Origin: Mucor racemosus
Taxonomy: Eukaryota; Mucoromycota; Mucoromycetes; Mucorales; Mucoraceae
Assembly: GCA_027405735.1 (NCBI GenBank)
Contig: JAPEHQ010000009.1
Span: 372,001 to 436,000 of the forward strand
Reading direction: 5' to 3'
Length of the DNA stretch: 64,000 bases
Every line of letters begins with the position of its first letter. Position 1 is the stretch's first letter. Below, piece by piece: positions 19,704 through 38,067 of the stretch. A program made the position numbers and the translations under genes. The notes beneath the pieces are model-generated. The model made no database searches and was not told the origin of the DNA. It saw only the letters and a list, made by a program, of their open reading frames with translations.

Positions 19704-20478
19704 GAGTCAAAGTGTTTTATTTGTTCTGTATGTACAGTAAGTCTTCTATGTTAGTGCATAGTTCAACAAATAATTCGTCTATAGCTGGTATATCTTCAAT
19801 ATGTGTTTCTTCTATCAAATCTAAATATATACACAACCAGAGAGTTTTTATGGAATTGAATTCATCCTTTTTACATAAAGTTACATAACATTCAATAAAA
19901 AGACTCTTTTCATACCAATGAAATCTAAGTGATGAAAAAAAAAGCAAATACGACTTCATATTTGTGGGATCAAATGACTTTATTGCTGAACACCTCATTT
20001 CTTATTGTTTAGGCCGAAACAGGTAAAAATATCAGCGACAGAACATGAGCAGCCTTTTTGATACCTTAATAGCTGCTTGGAATATTTAAACAACCGCGTC
20101 CGGGATGTCCGATAATTTTTTCTAGAGATTTAAAGCTCGGAGATATCATTAGATGGCTGCTTTCGGAGACTGTTCGGCTTTTTTTTTGGAAGAGTGACCG
20201 GAGACAGAGAGAGAGCGAGATCAAATTTTAAATAAGTCGCAAACTTTATGTGTATTGTATTCCAAGCAATACAGCGAGAGAGAAATATAATAAAAAGAGA
20301 TGTAGTAAAATCAATTAGAACATTAGAACCGAACAAGGGCAAAAAGAAGGAATTGCTTTATTTATTACTGCTTGAAATAGGTCTTCATATTTATACTGTT
20401 TTCATAATAATATATATGAGTTCATTCGATATAAAAAAATATAACATGTCTGTTTGGAATGCTTACTGGAGAATGTAA
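19704..20478. other. Intergenic AT-rich sequence
   Basis: No supported gene or repeat. The short open frames lack coding character. Confidence 0.5.
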
Positions 20479-21562
20479 CTAAAAGCTTGTTTTATTATAG
20501 CAGTTGATGATCTGGCGCTTAGAATGTCTACAGAATTCCTGAAGATCGCTGACGCGTACATTTTTACATGCATCTGCAATCCTTTGCGATAGATTCTCTT
20601 CCTCCATTAATCTATGACGCTTCATTTTTCCTTTTACAAGAGCCCAAAACTGCTCAATTGGGTTCAGTTCTGGTGAGTAAGGAGGCAAGTACATTACTCT
20701 ATAACCTCTGCTTTCAATTTTTCTCATCATTGGATGAGACTTATGAATAGTACAGTTATCCATTACAAGGTAACTACCCATAAGACTTTGATCCATGTCC
20801 ATGATATCAAGAAGTTCATTCATAAATTTTAAAAAATGAGCAGTAGTTGTACCCTTTGCTACTGGCTTATTTTTCTCAACATCAGCAATCTTTCCAACAT
20901 CAATGTACCCTATAGTAGGCTCTTCAATGATGATATCACCCGCTCTTTACTCTTTGCTCTTTGCATCCTGTAAGCTTTCTTTTTTTTTGGGTCGGTCTGT
21001 TTTTGCTGCTTGACGTTTTGAACCTTTTTGGCTTTTGAGTGGTGGTTTTTTCATAGCAACGTGGAGAACACTAGTACAGTGTATAGCACCGATAATGGTG
21101 TGGGATGGAGAACGAACCTTTTCAACTTCTACTTGGGCAGGTGCTCCCACAACCGACCTAGCCCAGTTGTTTCTCATATTGATGTTAAACCCAGCTTCAT
21201 CAATAAAAACACAATTGTTTGTATAGTCCAGATTTGAGTCCTTCCACTTAATAAACCACTCGTATCTCGTTTGCAAGTTGTCGTCAGAGTTTCTTACTTT
21301 GGGATCAAATGTTGGTTTCTTAATTGAAATCAACATGTTGTTTCTCAAGTGGTGGGCTTATTCCGAGATTCTTTGCATGCGAATTCACTTTTTCTCTCTC
21401 CAAAGGGCCTTCGACCATTCGATCAGTGAATATTTTTCTGGCTTGATCACTGCAGTCTTTGTGAATGCCATCACTCAATGGTTTGGCAACTTCTACATCA
21501 AATGAGGTTCGAAAAAGCGACCAATTGAAATTTAAAAAGCGACCAATTGACGGTGGAAGCAC
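20479..21562 (-). pseudogene. Broken Tc1/mariner (IS630-type) DDE transposase
   Basis: The catalytic core is readable. The first Asp lies in NNCVFIDEAGFN (about 21205), the second in YLVMDNCTIHKS (about 20755), and the Glu in PPYSPELNPIEQFWALVKGK (about 20650), the typical DDE_3 endonuclease motif. The N-terminal part (21562-21330, with KDCSDQARKIFTDRMVEGPL) is out of frame with the core, and a TAA interrupts the core at 20947-20949. The element cannot make a full transposase. A 17-base unit, aaaaagcgaccaattga, is tandemly repeated just upstream (21512 and 21534). I could not find matching terminal inverted repeats enclosing this gene. Confidence 0.85.
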
Positions 21563-21572
21563 TGTATATATA

Positions 21573-22057
21573 CAGCCGTGATTCGATTTAGTGGAATCGT
21601 TGGGAGGGAGAAAAGAGAAAAGTGTCCACTAAATCGAATAAATCATTATCCGTAATATTGGATCAAAAAATGAGAATAAAAAGGCGTTACTAGTTTATAG
21701 TATTAAATAATATTTTTAATAAAGGCTTTTCATATTCGAGCAACTGAATTGAACAGTGGATAACAAGAAATTTAATAAAAGACTGAGGTAAATTAGGCAC
21801 GTGATTTGGTTACTCTCCATATTTCTTCTAATTTCATGGCTACCAGATCAAGCTATTGCCGGCTAAATACAGTTTTATCCAATAGTATTTATATTTTACT
21901 AATATAGTGGACTGGTAGAAACGAAATTGTCCACTATCCACTGAATCGATTCAGTGGATTTAGGCAGTAAAATTATTAAAAAAAAACGGGAGATTTCAAA
22001 CTGTCCATTAAATCGAAAATCCGTTATTTATGAGTCCACTAAATCGAATCACGACTG
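21573..22057. mobile_element. 485-bp MITE with TA target-site duplication
   Basis: The left end cagccgtgattcgatttagt mirrors the right end, which on the opposite strand reads cagtcgtgattcgatttagt. The inverted repeat continues as gga for about 23 bases with one mismatch. TA flanks both sides (21571-21572 and 22058-22059). Further copies of the ccactaaatcgaa / ttcagtggat motif occur inside. There is no coding capacity. CAGT-starting ends with a TA duplication are typical of pogo/Tc1-mariner-derived MITEs. Confidence 0.92.
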
Positions 22058-22059
22058 TA

Positions 22060-22771
22060 ATATCCAACGAAGTGTTATTTTTTGAGTGGCCAACGAGATT
22101 CAATTATAAATGCATGGTTTCATTTCTAGAAAACAATCCACCTTCTTCAATCAGTATGTATAATACAAATTGAGTAGCTATTCTCTGGACTGAATTAATG
22201 TATAGCTACAATTCGATAGAATGATATTAAGTAATCAAGAGAAAAAAGATAAACGTTTGATAAACTTTTAGGCAATTTAGCAGTTTTTGTATGAAAGTAT
22301 CAATTATTTCACCATGATCCATATTTTTGAAATAAGAGAATGAACTAGTGATTACAAATATACTTGCATGAATTCTTAACATTTACATACTGTACTATTA
22401 TAGATTTAAGCTCTAATTTGGCACGATAAACTTAATATCATCTAGAAACTAGATCTAAGATGTTGTAACACACACACACACACAAAAGAAGATCTCATTC
22501 TCTACATGAACAAAATATAGGAACAATGCGTAACTCATTGTTACAAGTTTAGCCATAACTTTAAAAGAGATAAATTCCCATAAGAAACGAAATAGGGTAA
22601 TTTCGCACACACATTTCATTTAGTATAAAAATGCCCATATTTTAAAATAAATGTGTCAGTCCAATTCCCATAGAAAAACGGTGTGTATAAGTTTATTTTA
22701 TAATATTTAGAAAGAAAAAATTAAGCAAACTAAATAGCCATGTTAGTTTTTTCTCTTCTCTCTTTTGTCTA
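22060..22771. other. Intergenic sequence, with ARPC4 3' flank
   Basis: AT-rich with an (AC)n run near 22470-22485. No gene is visible. Confidence 0.55.
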
Positions 22772-23490
22772 TCAACTTTTTACCTGAACCAAATAGCTTT
22801 CTGCAACAGTTCTTGCGCGAGTATTTACACTCAACTTCATCTCAGAAATTTCCTTGTCAACTTCTTCCATGAAATGAACAATAAAGTCAACCAATTTGTG
22901 TTTATACATTTGTTCAGTATGGTTGTTTGTAATCAAGAAAGAGATATCATAGCCCTAAATTAATAATTTAAAGTTTATAAATGTTGCAACCTATTTCTTG
23001 GCTAAAAAAAAATAAAAAAACTTACATCAACTGGCTTTCTACGTAAAATAACAAAACTCTCGGCTCTCATCATCAAGAAACGAGAGAATTTATGACACAA
23101 TATACGTTCGAGGTCATCAGCTTGTTTGATCTTAATGCTGACACGAACAGAGTTGACTGAAGGTTCGACTAATACTTTTTCATTTTCGTTACGACTGATA
23201 ACTAAAGGGTTCATCAATAATTCTTTGGATTTTCTAATAGTAAAAATGTTGGATGTATATACATTTATGCTGTGGTATCATATATTTACCCTGACTCAAT
23301 TTCAGGTGTATTATGTCTTTCTGCTACTTGAGAAGAGAAGTTCTCTAAACATAAAGCAGCAGTCAAAGTTGAACGAACAGCTGTAAGATATGGGCGAAGT
23401 GTATTAGACTAGATTTAGTAAATAAAATATCGCGTTAATTTCTTCCATTTGTGTCTAATTTTTTTCGATTTGTATTGTAATATTTACCAT
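22772..23490 (-). CDS. ARPC4: Arp2/3 complex subunit ARPC4 (p20)
   Basis: Exons 23488-23490 (the ATG alone), 23408-23290, 23233-23026 and 22954-22772 join in phase to 170 codons, the normal family length. Diagnostic segments are [47 protein letters not shown]-like [20 protein letters not shown], and YKHKLVDF followed by [24 protein letters not shown]4 forms the structural core of the seven-subunit Arp2/3 complex with ARPC2; that complex nucleates branched actin at endocytic patches. The start codon sits alone in exon 1, separated by a 79-nt intron, which is the only way to give the conserved N terminus an ATG here. Confidence 0.95.
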
Positions 23491-24537
23491 AATGTTGGTT
23501 TTATCTTTTTTAAATAAAGGGAGGGAAAGAGAGGAAATAAGAAAAAGAAATAATGAGAGTAATACACTTTCTTTCGTCACTTGTTGCACACTGTTTTACT
23601 CGGCGTTTTAAGGTGCACAACAACAGCAAATGTATACCTACATATTGTGCTTTTCAAATACAGTGCTTTGTGAGTGAATAACCGAAAGCTATGGTCCGAC
23701 ACTCGAAAGTCTCTACCGACTAATCGATGCAAGCAAGAAACAAATACCGTCAATGTTCTCTTTGCTTTGAAGCATAAAAGCCCTTGCTATTGTTGCCTTC
23801 ATTTTTTTCCACCTATCATTATCAACATTTGTTATTTTATCAATTATGAATAAACAGTTATATATCATGCAAAGCAACAAAACACAAAAGCATTTTGCAT
23901 GACACGAATAAGAGCATCCACAGCGGTTTGTAGTATATCAGTATAAAGCAGCACTGTATAGATAAACTCAACTGTTTTGAACGTCATTGTTTTTTGTTTT
24001 ATATTCTTTATTTATATTAATCTAATCCAAAAGATAACATCGGTATGTAAGCAACATTTGATGATTGTTTTAGACATGATTCAATAATAAAAAATGATTC
24101 GTCTAACTGGTAGGAACATCGAGTTATGTAAACAATATTTTAAATATACATGTAATCTACATAGGAAATATATGTATAATTACATCTAATCAATATCATA
24201 AATTATAACTACATATAATATACAAGAACACACAATATAAACAAAATCGAGTGTATATACACATATACACGAAAGAATGTTAAGTGTGTTAAATTTACGT
24301 TCTTAATCATGGATGAATGCAATTTATGTCCGTGCAGAATATTTCTCGCTTTTGTTGTTGTTATTATTGTTGCAATTATAACCATGCTATCATGTTGTCA
24401 AAAAATATACTGTATGGAACTGTTGTCAAATTCCTTCCTAATTTTATATAAAAAGAGTCAATTTCTCTCCTATGGTAGGCAGATTTCTATTCTTTATATC
24501 ATATAATTAACAGCATCGTCTTATACATATATACAAA
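23491..24537. other. Divergent promoter region of ARPC4 and the Ser-Ala repeat gene
   Basis: About 1 kb without a supported gene. It should hold the promoters of the minus-strand ARPC4 and the plus-strand repeat protein. The only clear element is the TATA-like box described separately. Confidence 0.55.
24444..24456 (+). promoter_or_regulatory. TATA-like box of the Ser-Ala repeat gene
   Basis: The sequence ttatataaaaag lies about 85 bases before the ATG at 24538, a position typical of TATA-dependent, strongly regulated fungal genes. Confidence 0.55.
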
Positions 24538-26022
24538 ATGCGTTTTTCTCTTGCCATCATCTCCTCTGTTGTATTAGCTCAAGCTGTTTATGCTTCTTCT
24601 TCTGCTGCTGAATCTGCTTCTGCTTCTGGATCTGCTTCATATGCTCGTTATGCTGCTGCATCAGTATCTGCATCTTCAGCCGCTCCATCTGCATCTGCTA
24701 GTCATGCTGATTCCCTTGATAAGCGTAATTTATTTGAGTATATTAAGAAGGTAATCTTTGCTGATGAAGAAAGCTCTGTTGAATCCGCTTCTGCTTCTGC
24801 TTCTGCCTCTGTTCATGAAGATGCTTATTATATTGCCGCTGTTTCTGAATCCGCATCTGCTTCGGCATCTGCTTCTGCTTCATCTGATGCCCCAGCTCTT
24901 GGCAAGCGTGCTGGTGATATGCAAAATATCCTCGAATCAATGGAAGAATTAGCCTTCTCTGCCAACGCTGCTTCTTCTGCTTCTGCCTCTGCCTCTGCTT
25001 CTGCCTCTGCCTCTGCCTCTGAAGCCCCTGCCCTCAAGTGGAGAAATCGTGCTGCTGCCCGTGTCAGTGCTCAAAGTGCTTCCCGTTCTGCCTCTCAATC
25101 TCAATCAGCATCTGCTCATGCCACTCCTTTGGTCAAATACAATAACTGGAAGCGTTCCGCAAGTGAAAGTGAAAGTGAGAGTGCATCTGCTTCTGCTGCT
25201 GCTTTTGAAGATATTTTCGCTGCTGCTTCAGTTTCTCAATCAGCTTCTGCCTCATTTGCTGCTGATGCTGTTCCTGCATCTGCATCTGCTTCAGCATCTG
25301 CTTCAGCATCATTTGCACCCGTCTATGTTAAGCGTGGAGTGTTCGATGATTCAGTTACCTCTGCTCCTCCTCTTCCTTCGGGTTTGTACATTCCTATTCG
25401 TGCTGCTCAATCTGAATCTGCATCAGCATCTGCTTCTTTCTCTGCCGCTGAATACTCTGCCTCCGCTTCTGCTTCTGCCCCAGCTCTCTTAAAGCGTGAA
25501 GCTAGTGCATCTGTTTCCCAACAAAGCGCTTCTGCTAGTGGCCAGGCTAGTCGTTACAGAGCTGCTGCTGAACCATCTGCCTCAGCTTCTGCATCTGCAT
25601 CTGTTGTCGAGGAAGAAATGGCCTACATTGTCAAGAATGTCAAACGTGAAGAGGCATCTGCATCTAAATCTGCAAGTGCTAGTGCATCTGTTGTCGAGCC
25701 AGCTGCTGCAGCAGTTAGCGCTTCTGCCTCTGCAAGCGCTAGTGTCCCTGTGCTTATTAAAGCTGCTGCTGCCAGCGCTTCTGCTTCCGTTGTTGAGCCT
25801 GCTGCTGATTCTATTGTCGCTGATGTTCAATCACAAATCGAAGCCATTATGGTTCAAGATGAAGCATCTCCAGCTATTGATGAAACTGTTGATATTGAAG
25901 AAGTTTCCGTTGCACCAGTCGTCGAGGAAGAAGTTGCCGGAAATGATGAAGATAACTTTTGGATTGATGATGCAGAAGCCGAAGCTCAATTCCAAGGTTT
26001 TCACTGGAAGGAAAGCAACTAA
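24538..26022 (+). CDS. Secreted Ser-Ala repeat protein with spaced Lys-Arg (Kex2-type) sites
   Basis: Intronless, 494 codons. Residues 1-19 (MRFSLAIISSVVLAQAVYA) are a textbook signal peptide. The rest is built from (Ser-Ala)n blocks separated by short unique segments. Lys-Arg pairs occur at residues 62-63, 123-124, 205-206, 265-266, 319-320 and 369-370. Several units end alike: APALGKR, APVYVKR, APALLKR, with APALKWR and VPVLIKA as non-dibasic variants. This is the layout of Kex2-processed repeat proteins, whose units are cut in the Golgi and exported as peptides. The Ser-Ala alternation favours beta-sheet, as in silk. The C terminus (from about residue 430) is acidic and repeat-free. Codons are biased to TCT/GCT/GCC, and a TATA-like box lies upstream, both suggesting strong expression. 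No known family was recognised; a structural wall protein is the main alternative. Confidence 0.85.
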   Translation: MRFSLAIISSVVLAQAVYASSSAAESASASGSASYARYAAASVSASSAAPSASASHADSLDKRNLFEYIKKVIFADEESSVESASASASASVHEDAYYIAAVSESASASASASASSDAPALGKRAGDMQNILESMEELAFSANAASSASASASASASASASEAPALKWRNRAAARVSAQSASRSASQSQSASAHATPLVKYNNWKRSASESESESASASAAAFEDIFAAASVSQSASASFAADAVPASASASASASASFAPVYVKRGVFDDSVTSAPPLPSGLYIPIRAAQSESASASASFSAAEYSASASASAPALLKREASASVSQQSASASGQASRYRAAAEPSASASASASVVEEEMAYIVKNVKREEASASKSASASASVVEPAAAAVSASASASASVPVLIKAAAASASASVVEPAADSIVADVQSQIEAIMVQDEASPAIDETVDIEEVSVAPVVEEEVAGNDEDNFWIDDAEAEAQFQGFHWKESN

Positions 26023-26178
26023 ACTTATAAAACTCACCTAGACCTTAACTTAACGACCCGCGAAAAATATTTTACCCATCATAAATTCAACAAAACTATA
26101 TAACATCTTTTATTATTATACTATCATATTCCACTACTAAAAATTATAATAAAGTCTTTTTTATATATTATACATATT

Positions 26179-26897
26179 TTACTTGCTGAATGGAACTTGT
26201 TGAAAGCAATTTACAATCATTTTCATTGGAAAATATCGTTTATCAGGAACACGGTGAGTGAATAAAATGTTTAAATTGTTGTCAATAATAATAACAGACC
26301 GTTGCATTTCTAATGTCTCCATATTTAGTGATTTAAATGCTCTTGAAATTAATCTGTCTGCACTATCAGATGCTAATATAAACGATGGTTTAAAGTTTAA
26401 ACTTTGCGCTGTGGTATTTGGTAAAGCGTAGGCTGCGTGGATTTGTGCTCGATCCTGAGTCATAACAATTGGTACAGCACCGTATTTCATAAAAGTGTCA
26501 TAATGCTCTCTAAAGGAGATATATCGCTCTACATTAATGATTAATCTTTTACTGATTTTATGATATACTTTACTCTATATGGCATAAATCATCTTTTGAT
26601 TGCTGTGTACTATTATACACGTTAATATACATTATTGTGAATATGTTTTAACGCTTACAAATCGTATCCACAAAAGAACAGAACAGCATACTGTCCACCT
26701 TGAAACACATCTGATAACTGAAACTGCAATATTTGGCCTTGATAATAAATCAAGCATCGGAAATCATGAATACCAGGCTTACTTCGGTTTGCAATTTTTA
26801 ATTTAGTGTTAACTTCTTCACTTAATACGGCATCAACTTCATCAATGTATTCTCTGTATCGCTTTAAAGGGTTCTTGGTGTTTTGAAGTTGCTGCAT
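26179..26897 (-). CDS. Thioredoxin-fold AhpC/TSA-like protein lacking the peroxidatic motif
   Basis: Exons 26897-26659 and 26551-26179 give 203 codons. The GTAAGC donor is clear. Three acceptors (GAG, CAG, AAG) all keep the frame, and I chose the CAG before 26551. Residues 55-80 contain LSDVFQGGQYAVLFFCGYD, the peroxiredoxin first strand. Then follow FREHYDTFMKYGAVPIVMTQ, FILASDSADRLISRAF and RSVIIIDNNLNILFTHRV, matching the AhpC/TSA order (peroxide-sensing helix, VxxD, SDxxxxLxxxxG, FVID). The usual Pro-x3-Thr-x2-Cys peroxidatic motif is absent; the only nearby cysteine is in FFCGYD. It may be a non-catalytic or divergent redox protein. It is convergent with the Ser-Ala gene, with a 156-base gap. 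Confidence 0.72.
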
Positions 26898-27073
26898 TGC
26901 TATCGTATTTTATAATGTAAGAAAAAAGTGAAAGAAGAAAAGAAGAAAGAAAAAGAAACCCTGAATTAAACAGCTTTATATTTTATTGTGTATTTTGCAT
27001 GAAATGTGTATATGAAATTCGCATCGTGTTACACTTGCTTGAGAAAATAAAAAGTTCTCACAACATTTTATCA

Positions 27074-29340
27074 TTAATCCAACAAGACGACATCTTCTTC
27101 GTCGTCTTCAAGGACAACTACATTGTCAATTATTTGATGAGATACTTTAGCCTTTTTAGCTGTTTGTTGAGCCAAATGTTCATCTTCATCATCATCTAAT
27201 TTACGTTTTCTTTCTTCTGCTTCATTTTTAGACAATAAAGGTTTGGGAATTGCATTCATCAATTTTAAACTATCATCATGCTCCTCCTTTGTATCACTGG
27301 AAAAAAAAAAAGGGATTAATTCATATATAAAAATAAATAACAAGACAAGTTAAAACTTACAATTCTTCTAAAATAAGATCAACGTCCTCGCCACCATCAT
27401 CTTGAGTAATACGTATAATTGTACCAGGTTTTAAACCAACATCTCTTAATTTCAAATCGACACTGTCATCGAATTCAATATCATAAATCATACGGCTACC
27501 ATCCATAATAGCAACTTCATCTTCAACCATACCAGCTCCTCCTTGTTCTTGTGAAACCAAAATAACTTTTTGAATAATATCATTCAATGTGGTTTTATCA
27601 AAGTCTACTTTTACTGTTGCGCTTCTTGATCTGCAAACGCCACAGTTTGGGTTAGGTTCTGTATTTGCTTCTTGAACTAACCGAGAGCCAGTAGTAAGGT
27701 ATGTTCTAGGGTTGTTCTTGATATCTCCACGCAAAATACCATAGGCTTTCATAATGACAAAGCCTGCAATAACTGCATTGGTTGTTGCAATAGCGGGAAT
27801 AATATTTCCTGCCATAGCTATTTATAAGGATTTAGAAAAACTGATTTCCTGTATTTACGATCAAAACTTACACTTGACATCGAATAAACTTTTGCTTGGG
27901 ATATTAAATACATGTGCTCTCAAATTAGATGCAGCTGTTACAAAATCCATAGCATCGTCATCATCTTTATCAAATGATAAAATAGCATCTGATTGTGTTT
28001 CTTTTTCTTTCAAGTAACGAGTAGCTAATCTGACAACACTATCCTTGAACATTTCAAAATTCTCTTTTAATGTCCACACCTTTTGATCTGCAAGACCTTC
28101 TGCGGATGTTTTTGCTGCTGTTGATTCGCTTTCTAATATATCAAATTCTAATGGTGTTGGCATGGCTCGATTTTTCCACATGGAATCCATGGATAAAAGT
28201 CGTTTGATGTCTGTATTGTAAACCTTGTCGAATACCTTTTTAGCATAATCCGCTGATCCTACTGCTTCTTTAATTAATTTTAATTCGGCGGTTTCTCTTG
28301 ATAATGCAGCCAATTCTTGAGCTATTACAATTATTAGATCTTGTACTCTATTGTAATGTTTTTTGTTTTGTTTTTTGTTTTACCATTTTCTTCAGAATTA
28401 TCTGCTTCAAGGGCTTCTTCATCCTCTGAATTACCAAATAATTGGCTGAAAATTATATTAGATAACCGAGCCTATTTTTTTTTGGCAGCATCCTTACCTG
28501 AATAAAAAGCTCTTTGCCCAAACAATGCAATGAATAGGAGCACTAGGTGTACTTCTAATAGTACAAACAGGATATGTTGTAGGTGTAGGCTTGGGTTGAC
28601 AATCAAAACATTCCGTCTCAAACTATCAAGAAATAATTCAGTTATATAATTCATGCATATTCGTAAGTAAATTCTGCAAACCTTTTTAATGACATATGCT
28701 TGACCAAGGTAGCCCTGAGTACCTGATTCTACCAAAGGTACATCTGCTGCCAAGCACATGGCATTCACGTGGCGGCGAGCATCTATTTGTCTATATTAGC
28801 CAATTGTTTTTCCAAAGATCACACTTTCATTTTACCTAAATTGTCTAACGCGTTGAGAACCATTGTAAACTGCTTGAACCATTGAACACTAAATTGACTT
28901 TCTTTGATGTTGTTTTGAAGAGATTTAATATTGGCTGAAGGGTTAAATTTGATAGCTGATTCTTTAGCAACCTGAATACATATTCAAATATTGATTAATA
29001 CATGTTCCCTTCTTCAAAATTATGTCTAGAAATGCCATACATGTGCCTTTGCTTTCTTGACATGTTGACGTTGAAATAAGAATTGTCGATTCAAATTAGA
29101 AATATCGATAGTATCCAAATCAATCTACACAATCAAAAATATGGTTAATTATCAGAGCTGTCAAAATATAACGTTTCTTTTTACCACAAGAATGTCTTTG
29201 AATCCTGACATGACTAAATCTTTCAATAATTCACATCCAATACCACCAGCACCGACTAAAAGAATCTTGCTTTCTACGACTTTATTATACAATTCTTGTC
29301 CGAGAACTCGAACGTTATAAGATTCTCTGTTACTGTTCAT
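27074..29340 (-). CDS. UBA2: SUMO-activating enzyme E1 subunit Uba2
   Basis: Nine exons: 29340-29185, 29124-29041, 28971-28836, 28782-28682, 28622-28498, 28445-28384, 28321-27872, 27817-27361 and 27296-27074, all in phase, 597 residues, a normal family length. The nucleotide-binding loop is [20 protein letters not shown] (about residues 24-43). The zinc ligands are CFDC (164-167) and the CGVC pair in the fourth-quarter segment [10 protein letters not shown]. The catalytic cysteine is Cys179 in [12 protein letters not shown] ubiquitin-fold domain follows ([20 protein letters not shown]). The C terminus has a basic [11 protein letters not shown] stretch and a [14 protein letters not shown] segment that resembles a SUMO-interacting motif. 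Uba2 pairs with Aos1 to adenylate SUMO and pass it to Ubc9, mainly in the nucleus. Confidence 0.96.
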
Positions 29341-29839
29341 ATCGAATTACTGATTTATTATGGATTGAGCAGGTAAATGAATGCATTTCCATATTAAAGA
29401 AGCCAGCTTTTCAAGCGCGTCGCACAGTCACGAAGGAGGTCAACTCTAATATGCAATGTTTGCATTTGAAGCCTCTCCCCGCAACCATTAGTCATTGTAT
29501 CGTCAAATCCTCCGGGAAATCAAGGCACATTTACTTTGCCCAATTAATTATGAAGTATGAGCCTTTGAGGCTTTATATTGAATCAAATCAGCCCGTATCA
29601 TTGTTTACAAAGGATCCATTGACATTCAACATGTCATCAATCAAACGCCGAAGATTGTGGGGCTATCAGATACACTACATGGTCCATAGTCACAAGCTAA
29701 TGGACACGTTATTTCAAATGAAAAGAAAAAAAAATTAACAAAGCAAGATTATAATTCCCTTGTTCCAATTCTTTAATCTTTCTAGATTATTCAAATTTAT
29801 TGTATATATAGATAAAGTGTGGCATAGAGGATTAGAATA
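29341..29839. other. Divergent promoter region of UBA2 and LETM1
   Basis: About 500 bases between divergent housekeeping genes. A 95-codon frame at 29451-29738 lies wholly inside, but it has no recognisable domain and probably arises by chance. Confidence 0.55.
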
Positions 29840-31954
<2,115 letters not shown>

Positions 31955-36258: not shown

Positions 36259-38067
36259 TGTAATAAGTGCTATGATCTTGTAATAGGTTGAGTCTATTAA
36301 GAAAGAAGTACCAGAGGTGGACGTTGATGGTGTTACTAATTGTAGTTGACTATTATTTTGATCAATACTTACTATGTATTAAGTGTGGTTAATATTTGAC
36401 AAGTAGTATTAAGTAATAGATCGGTTGTGGTTGTGATAATAAGTTTATTTGATTAAAATTATTAATGAAGGGAAGAAACAGATATTTTCACTAATGTTCA
36501 ATATCTGATTCAACATTTACATATTTATATGAATTATATAACTAAAACTAATTTATGCAATTATTGTTGAAACATCATGTAATGTGAATCATTACATTAT
36601 CCCCTCCTTCTTAGAGCGTTGTTTATATTGTAGAGAAGCTATTGAAGGTTTGTTGGGATAATCTTGATGGAATTGGTTAGTTAATAATGTTGCATTTTTC
36701 AGATTTTCTTTGGCTTCCCAAGTGTCTTCTGATGGGTCCTCGTATCCTTTACACTTGACCTTATATTGTAATTTATTCCTGAAAATTCTACTGTCCAATA
36801 TTTGGTCCACTTCATATTCTTCATTGCTATCGACAATTATTGGAGGAGGTTGTGGTAAGACTCTGTTGTCGATATCTTCTAATCCTATTACTGATCTGGG
36901 AGTTAATTTGGAGATGTGAAATGTATGGTGAATTTTCATTATTGATGCTGGTAGTTCGAGTTTGTACGCATGTGAACTAAGTTTTTTGACAATTTTGAAT
37001 GGTCCAATTCTTTTATGATCAAGTTTCTTCATTGGTCTTGTAGTTGTAATATTTTTTGTATCGATATATACCTGATCGCGAATCCTTAATTCACGTATTT
37101 GTCTTTTTCTTTGGTTTTAGTACATGGCTTGGGATTTTTGCGCACGTGAGATGTTGCTTTTGTTTTCCTCTTGAGTATCCTTTAATTTATTTAAAAATTC
37201 TTCAGACGCTGGAACGCATTCGCTACCCTCCTTCTTGATATTTATATCTGCTTTAGGGTGATAACCATAGTTGGCAAAAAATGGAGAACATTTGGTACTA
37301 GATTGACAGTGATTGTTGTAGCTAAATTCAGCTGTAGGTAATAGTTGGGACCAATCGATTTGTTGATAGTTGCAATACATCCTCAAGTATTGTTCCAAAG
37401 TTGAATTGGTTTTTCTGTTTGACCATCAGTTTCAGGTCTGAAAGCTGTGGACATGTTTACCTGAATTTGTAAGTTCTTGAGTAGGTGTTTCCAGAATTTG
37501 GAAGTGAATAATACGCCTCTTCTATCCGATATAATTGAAGATTGTAAGCCATGTAGTCTGAAAATATTATTGATGAATAAGATTGCTAATTCTTTTGCGG
37601 ACATGCTTTCGTTACAAGGGATGAAGTGAGCTATTTTTGATAATCTGTCGACGACAACAAAAATGCTATCAAAGCCTTGAGATTTTGGTAATTTTACAAT
37701 AAAGTCCATACTAATCGATTCCCATGATGGTTTATTTGGGATTTGTAGTGAAATTACCGGGCCTTGAGGTGCTTGTCTTGAAGGTTTACCACGAACACAT
37801 ATTTGACAATTTGCAACATAACGATTTACGAATTTAGTCACTCCTTTCCACCAATAATTCCGGGAAATTATTTCAGTAGTTTTGGCTCGACCAAATTGCC
37901 CAGATATGAGATTATCATGACTAAAATTATTAATGCAGGGAAGAAACAGATATTTTCACTAATAATGTTCAATATCTGATTCAACATTTACATATTTATA
38001 TGAATTATACAACTGAAACTAATTCATGCAATTATTGTTGAAACATCATGTAATGTGAATCATTACA
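36259..38067 (-). mobile_element. Internally deleted chromodomain Ty3/gypsy retrotransposon
   Basis: The 338-bp left LTR (36259-36596, TGTAAT...ATTACA) is the element's 3' LTR. A partial LTR at 37919-38067 is the remnant of the 5' LTR. A purine-rich tract (agaaggaggggataa on the minus strand) abuts the 3' LTR, as a polypurine tract should. The flanks tcaga (36254-36258) and tcata (38068-38072) are a 5-bp target duplication with one change; the empty site catatcagactatcaa is seen at 41130-41150. Gag, protease, reverse transcriptase and RNase H are all missing. Only integrase remains, fused by deletion directly to the LTR remnant. Confidence 0.93.
36592..37915 (-). pseudogene. Integrase-chromodomain remnant of the Ty3/gypsy element
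   Basis: Minus-strand pieces at 37915-37383, 37398-37117 and 37032-36592. Order: zinc-binding H2C2 region (YVANCQIC), integrase core with Asp in SMDFIVKLP and in ISDRRGVLFTSKFW and the Glu of FRPETDGQTE, the C-terminal GPFKIVKKLSSHAYKLELP domain, then a chromodomain (YEVDQILDSRIFRNKLQYKV, YEDPSEDTWE). A frameshift near 37390 and an in-frame stop at 37117 inactivate it. Chromodomain integrases (chromoviruses) direct insertion to marked chromatin. Confidence 0.92.

Follow-up and report, generated by a model that had tools for sequence, protein, structure and literature searches.

The window, by which we mean the whole stretch of 64,000 nucleotides of Mucor racemosus DNA analysed here, contains at positions 24538..26022 (+ strand) a coding sequence that raises the question of what a protein of Ser-Ala blocks interspersed with Lys-Arg (KR) pairs is made for: is it cut into peptides, and if so, do these act as signals or as material? 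The sequence is intronless and encodes 494 amino acids and a stop codon, with 134 Ala, 115 Ser, 14 Lys, 15 Arg, 8 Gly and no Cys in the product. A TATA-like TATATAAAAAG (24445..24455, +) lies 83-93 nt upstream of the ATG, and an AATAAA starting 126 nt past the stop codon (26148..26153, +) is a possible poly(A) signal. The explanation that we prefer, tentatively and at slightly under an even chance, is that the gene encodes a secreted precursor which kexin processes into surface (coat) peptides, similar in its working to Rep1 of Ustilago maydis.

The protein opens with a hydrophobic, signal-peptide-like N-terminus, MRFSLAIISSVVLAQAVYA (residues 1-19; 24538..24594, +). The best 12-residue hydropathy window (2.42) starts at residue 3, and the V-Y-A end fits the -3/-1 rule as judged by eye, which is also how the cleavage site was placed. 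No 19-residue window exceeds 1.6 anywhere in the protein, N-terminus included, and the translation contains no GPI-like tail. Sixteen (SA)2-or-longer runs are present. Lys-Arg occurs at residues 62, 123, 205, 265, 319 and 369, at intervals of 61, 82, 60, 54 and 50. These positions are exactly those given in an initial annotation, made from the sequence alone, whose signal-like start and Ser-Ala blocks were likewise recovered.

Reading the translation along the + strand, the pairs close six units: unit 1 (residues 20-63; 24595..24726) ends in SLDKR, unit 2 (64-124; 24727..24909) in APALGKR, unit 3 (125-206; 24910..25155) in NNWKR, unit 4 (207-266; 25156..25335) in APVYVKR, unit 5 (267-320; 25336..25497) in APALLKR and unit 6 (321-370; 25498..25647) in KNVKR. 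They are followed by a C-terminal tail with Ser-Ala stretches and an acidic end (371-494; 25648..26019). The dibasic pairs of the mature part are six KR and one KK, with neither RR nor RK, and the KR count is far from chance, none of 20,000 residue shuffles of this part having reached six. The spacing is fairly even: 243 out of 100,000 random placements were as regular over the inner intervals, and 1,277 out of 100,000 when the two end segments (43 and 124 aa) were counted as well, in a control that ignores a possible exclusion of KR from Ser-Ala blocks, which alone could even out the spacing.

A unit end of the form A-P-x-x-x-K-R, which the initial annotation had described as shared, stands at three of the six sites (ending at 124, 266 and 320) and is missing from the other three. 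Shuffling within units produced three such boxes in only 1 out of 100,000 cases. KR is absent from two box-like spots, namely APALKWRNR inside unit 3 (residues 163-171; 25024-25050) and VPVLIKA in the tail (residues 403-409; VPVLIK at 25744-25761). Searched at the DNA level, the pattern A-P-x-(I/L/V/M/F)-x-K-R had 30 genomic matches versus 17 for its reversed control; the only two matches falling within one gene were those in the Ser-Ala precursor, with singles elsewhere.

Profile searches identified two kexin-type proprotein convertase loci in the genome, at C8:1239789 (L050) and C10:1640381 (L051), both matching Peptidase_S8 and P_proprotein. Kexin disfavours Pro after a dibasic site. Since the genome has two kexin genes, none of the six KR precedes Pro and the first site reads SLDKR, a sequence identical to that of the final site in the yeast alpha-factor leader, cutting of the precursor at several KR sites is highly probable. 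Secretion and Kex2-type processing, both proposed in the initial annotation, accordingly keep their standing as likely, given also the dominance of KR among the dibasic pairs. The signal peptide would be removed, kexin in the late Golgi would cut after each of the six pairs, and a carboxypeptidase may afterwards trim the KR. Cutting at KR would give seven fragments of 44, 61, 82, 60, 54, 50 and 124 aa, KR included, and predicted cores of 42, 59, 80, 58, 52 and 48 aa besides the 124-aa tail. The range of 45-80 residues expected earlier is thus to be widened to 42-80 aa, plus the tail. Net charges, for units 1-6 and then the tail, are -2, -7, +1, -6, -3, -2 and -22, so that the products would comprise six Cys-free Ser-Ala peptides, of which five are acidic and one is near neutral, together with an acidic tail. 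Ser and Ala make up 50-74% of the six units and 40% of the tail, and GRAVY per unit ranges from -0.31 to 0.46.

The alternative that survives best is a protein that stays essentially intact: a disordered, O-mannosylated, Ser-rich protein of wall or mucilage that kexin would cut once or twice at most, for example after SLDKR to release a propeptide, the other KR pairs being incidental or partly used. We regard it as a serious candidate, if a rather unlikely one. The Ser-rich, Cys-free composition agrees with it, and so does the lack of a predicted globular fold in AlphaFold2 run on the single sequence (mean pLDDT 39.5; 395 out of 494 residues below 50; helices only, no strands), a model that is weak for silks and neither favours nor rules against beta-sheet packing. 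The two box-like spots without KR and the long uncut tail are also in its favour, as are three Ser-Ala proteins encoded elsewhere in the genome (L034, L037 and L046) that look GPI-anchored by eye. However, six KR, next to which the only further dibasic pair is one KK, are far from chance, fairly even spacing would not be expected of incidental sites, and the precursor itself has no GPI-like tail.

The other Ser-Ala proteins of the genome bear on several readings. A DNA pattern of four Ser-Ala codon pairs, run against the assembly (53.2 Mb, 54 contigs), gave 39 matches versus 9 for the reversed control. By our count they represent 17 places, the precursor gene alone accounting for 9 of the matches. 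Among the frames at the 16 other places, some are not gene-like, and three have a signal-like start as judged by eye (L032, L046 and L047). Ser-Ala runs alone are not diagnostic and need not mean silk, because a RabGAP (L036) and other frames without secretory features contain them as well. Among the places read, the closest architectural partner of the precursor appears to be L047, a secreted-looking 339-aa Ser-Ala protein with two introns placed by eye (C15:842583-843736; L047:3084-4237, +). Its dibasic pairs, KR at 140 and RR at 201 and 241, are followed by A, G and S, respectively, which leaves three usable sites. L032 encodes a secreted-looking 471-aa Ser-Ala protein, as read from its frame (C1:878556-879968; L032:3557-4969, -), without a match in a Pfam scan. 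Its two near-identical repeats and a looser one, with KR at 83-residue spacing, combine Ser-Ala runs with the acidic linker EKRPPRRRP and a LIDGLIDNLDDIIDDI stretch. The protein was not counted in favour of cutting, because both KR and the RRR precede Pro. L032 and L047 share an N-terminus (E 1.3e-5 and E 3.8e-5 in two comparisons). Descent of the precursor from either was considered and found no support: BLASTP gave at best 23.5 bits against the one L047 exon compared (E 0.003, 34 columns) and 13.9 bits against L032 (E 16).

If the precursor is cut, the next question is whether its units resemble each other as ligands for one receptor would. Under full shuffling, all 15 unit pairs looked alike, their observed scores being reached by 0 to 19 out of 300 shuffles. 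When the Ser and Ala places were fixed and only the remainder was shuffled, one pair (2-4) still exceeded all 300 shuffles, while for the other 14 between 17 and 186 out of 300 equalled the observed score. Similarly, the smallest unit matched each of the six other pieces (p ≤5e-6 each in 200,000 random draws; 12-19 of 42 positions identical), and once the Ser/Ala positions were removed it matched none of them significantly (p times windows 0.095 to 3.7). The units, therefore, have a common Ser/Ala pattern and hardly any common sequence, and such a pattern leads us to expect a material rather than a ligand for one receptor.

This comparison bears directly on the idea that each unit would be an active peptide, either a signal (pheromone, hormone or effector) or a RiPP; pheromones and RiPP precursors had been named in the initial annotation. 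The units, separated by KR behind a signal-like start, are what such a precursor would show, and two of the six KR are directly followed by an X-A dipeptide (SA at 207-208 and EA at 321-322), a STE13-type start as defined in the available part of PMC6339444. On the other side, cores of 42-80 aa that are half or more Ser/Ala and lack Cys do not suit it, nor does the near-absence of likeness outside Ser/Ala, the class being known, from the same excerpts of PMC6339444, for identical or nearly identical motifs. In addition, no biosynthetic neighbour was found among the 10 Pfam-scanned frames of the window (65 frames listed). We, thus, consider this reading very improbable, the units having in common little beyond the Ser/Ala pattern. 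An alpha-type pheromone precursor in particular, which would have short, near-identical cores behind STE13 spacers, was rejected, given the size of the cores, their dissimilarity outside Ser/Ala and an X-A start at only two of the six sites.

Codon use was examined with the EF-1alpha and EF-2 frames of the same genome as the reference for codon adaptation. With Ser and Ala left out, the gene scored 0.545, compared to 0.605 for prohibitin-2 and 0.544 for LETM1, two housekeeping genes of the window taken for comparison, in an index that, being based on two gene pieces, gives a rank and not a measure of expression. Ten other stretches (forkhead, TBC, five further stretches of the window, L045 and two kexin stretches) all lay below the gene, at 0.232-0.353; two other Ser-Ala proteins scored 0.418 and 0.453, and scoring EF-1alpha and EF-2 against one another gave 0.751 and 0.843. 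Once Ser and Ala were included, the gene dropped to 0.433, below prohibitin-2 (0.607) and LETM1 (0.491) and above the ten stretches (0.203-0.307). The codons outside Ser/Ala are, hence, adapted as in the two housekeeping genes. Two EF-2 genes were seen in the assembly (C14:285666 and C16:246319; L054 and L055), with the same score and similar starts, possibly a recent duplication. The L045 frame (L045:2056-8001), of at least 1,982 aa, carries Cep192/HYDIN/ASH and CFAP-type Ig domains; the host mould is presumed to be without flagella.

The Ser codons of the gene are mixed (TCT 68, TCA 16, AGT 13, TCC 10, AGC 6 and TCG 2), as are its Ala codons, and the tandem arrays detected in its DNA are 37-48 bases each and no longer, which speaks against a fresh hexamer expansion. 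A low-complexity gene under weak constraint, with blocks built by slippage of Ser-Ala hexamers and KR pairs without a role, is accordingly a most unlikely explanation: Ser-Ala codon runs at 16 other places and the lack of relatives in database searches would suit it, whereas the mixed codons, the short arrays, the adapted codons outside Ser/Ala, the intact 494-aa frame, the signal-like start and the KR excess all stand against it.

As to relatives, a whole-protein database search scored the 7,992 candidates with the most words in common and found none at E 0.001, and residues 416-494 used as query gave 313 candidates and none at E 0.1. E-values were computed for 5.8 billion sequences, and Ser-Ala words flood the candidates in such searches, so that distant relatives can escape them. 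Pfam, NCBIfam and PDB searches with the precursor gave no match, and in the same genome the whole precursor and its last 54 residues matched only the gene itself. A control search with the prohibitin-2 exon of the window found 34 named Mucorales species among the 120 matches listed, a result that speaks for the species represented in the database and says nothing of the completeness of their gene sets. The exon shows 100% identity, across 97-98% of its length, to proteins of Mucor circinelloides and M. plumbeus, 99% to M. lusitanicus and 97% to Rhizopus arrhizus, which supports the zygomycete (Mucorales) host proposed in the initial annotation. Since prohibitin-2 of more than 30 Mucorales species is present in the database, the precursor gene may evolve rapidly, be restricted, have been missed in annotation or lie out of the search's reach.

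The precursor of Rep1 in U. maydis carries a signal peptide. According to the available part of PMC4617103, Rep1 has 12 repeats of 34-55 aa and is cut into ten peptides 35-53 aa long and an eleventh of 228 aa; these assemble into surface-active, amyloid-like fibrils at the surface of the hyphae and aid aerial growth. Both precursors place their units between Kex2 sites and have one long piece (228 aa in Rep1 and 124 aa here); however, three of the six cores here exceed 55 aa. In contrast to the Rep1 units, described as imperfect amphipathic repeats, those of the Mucor protein have Ser-Ala blocks in common and little else, and a role at the hyphal surface is a likeness that we only propose.

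More broadly, KEX2-processed repeat proteins (KEPs) were defined in PMC6339444 and surveyed again in PMC7329392, and the available text of the latter counts 357 KEPs from 38 out of 39 Mucoromycota strains. Excerpts of the former note larger-sized peptides in Mucoromycota KEPs, and KEP functions are described as largely unknown in those of PMC9769878. The novelty claimed initially for such a peptide family is, therefore, weaker than it seemed, the class having already been described in Mucoromycota. By the rules quoted from PMC6339444, a KEP has an N-terminal signal peptide, no transmembrane segment and at least four fragments after KR/RR cutting, at least three of which are alike by FIMO and cover at least 15% of the protein. 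In the Mucor protein, KR cutting gives seven fragments, an imitation of FIMO matched the smallest unit to all six other pieces (three stretches of 42 aa already make up 25% of 494), a likeness that lies in Ser/Ala, and the genome has two kexin loci. It would, thus, qualify as a KEP by the first pipeline's rules as imitated, and only through Ser/Ala, unlike a class characterised in that source by identical or nearly identical motifs. The 124-aa tail might exclude it from the second survey, which drops separated pieces of over 100 aa in the part of PMC7329392 at hand. The precursor is unusual in composition within the known class of fungal Kex2-processed precursors.

Hydrophobins are marked by an 8-cysteine region and, outside Dikarya, are reported only from Caulochytrium and, once, from Mortierella, in the consulted part of PMC6784888. 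The protein itself was rejected as a hydrophobin, having no Cys in its 494 residues and no Pfam match (PF01185, PF06766), and a possible coat role is all it would have in common with them. Hydrophobin profile searches of this genome gave no match, nor did those of 14 control genomes, all prokaryotes, so that an absence is not proven; the lack of matches fits a coat role. Insect and spider silks are rich in Ala, Ser and Gly. The long Ser-Ala alternation is silk-like, whereas the presence of only 8 Gly in 494 aa, the probable cutting into small units and the lack of a detected homologue are not. No fungal silk-like or Ser-Ala repeat secreted protein was found in the literature (open-licence papers, among the titles listed).

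In the coat-peptide precursor that we favour, the Ser-Ala blocks would be bulk material, packing in a silk-like manner or covering the wall of hyphae or spores with an O-glycosylated brush. Given cutting, a coat or assembly role seems to us slightly better than an even prospect. The dissimilarity of the units argues for bulk surface peptides and against pheromones or RiPPs, because outside Ser/Ala only 1 of the 15 pairs is alike. The adapted codons outside Ser/Ala and the lack of a predicted globular fold also speak for it, as does L047, a further Ser-Ala protein of secreted appearance in the same genome, whose dibasic sites are KR, RR and RR. The box-like spots without KR, the helix-only model, the Ser-Ala runs in non-secretory proteins and the lower codon score once Ser and Ala are counted speak against it. 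A bolder and unlikely extension is that fungi of the Mucor type, lacking hydrophobins, cover aerial hyphae or spores with blended, self-assembling Ser-Ala peptides from one kexin-cut polyprotein. The peptides would share only their Ser-Ala packing blocks and differ in their other parts, and the precursor would evolve too fast to be recognised by sequence in other Mucorales. The portion of the hydrophobin literature consulted (PMC6784888) does not settle by what means Mucorales render their aerial hyphae and spores water-repellent. A kexin-cut Ser-Ala precursor would be a candidate for that coat that can be tested by knock-out, and small silk-like peptides that self-assemble might be obtained from it.

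An Rfam scan of window positions 20000-30000, around the gene, gave no match. About 3 kb upstream of the gene lies a DDE_3 transposase fragment (20482-20946, -), with neighbouring frames to 21628, which we take to be of the Tc1/mariner type; the frame beside it at 20950-21357 had no Pfam match. The precursor gene stands between this fragment and a gene carrying a UBA_E1_SCCH domain. Further along the window, at 36595-37955 (-), a chromodomain, a Tf2-type SH3 domain and integrase pieces were found, as in an LTR retrotransposon.
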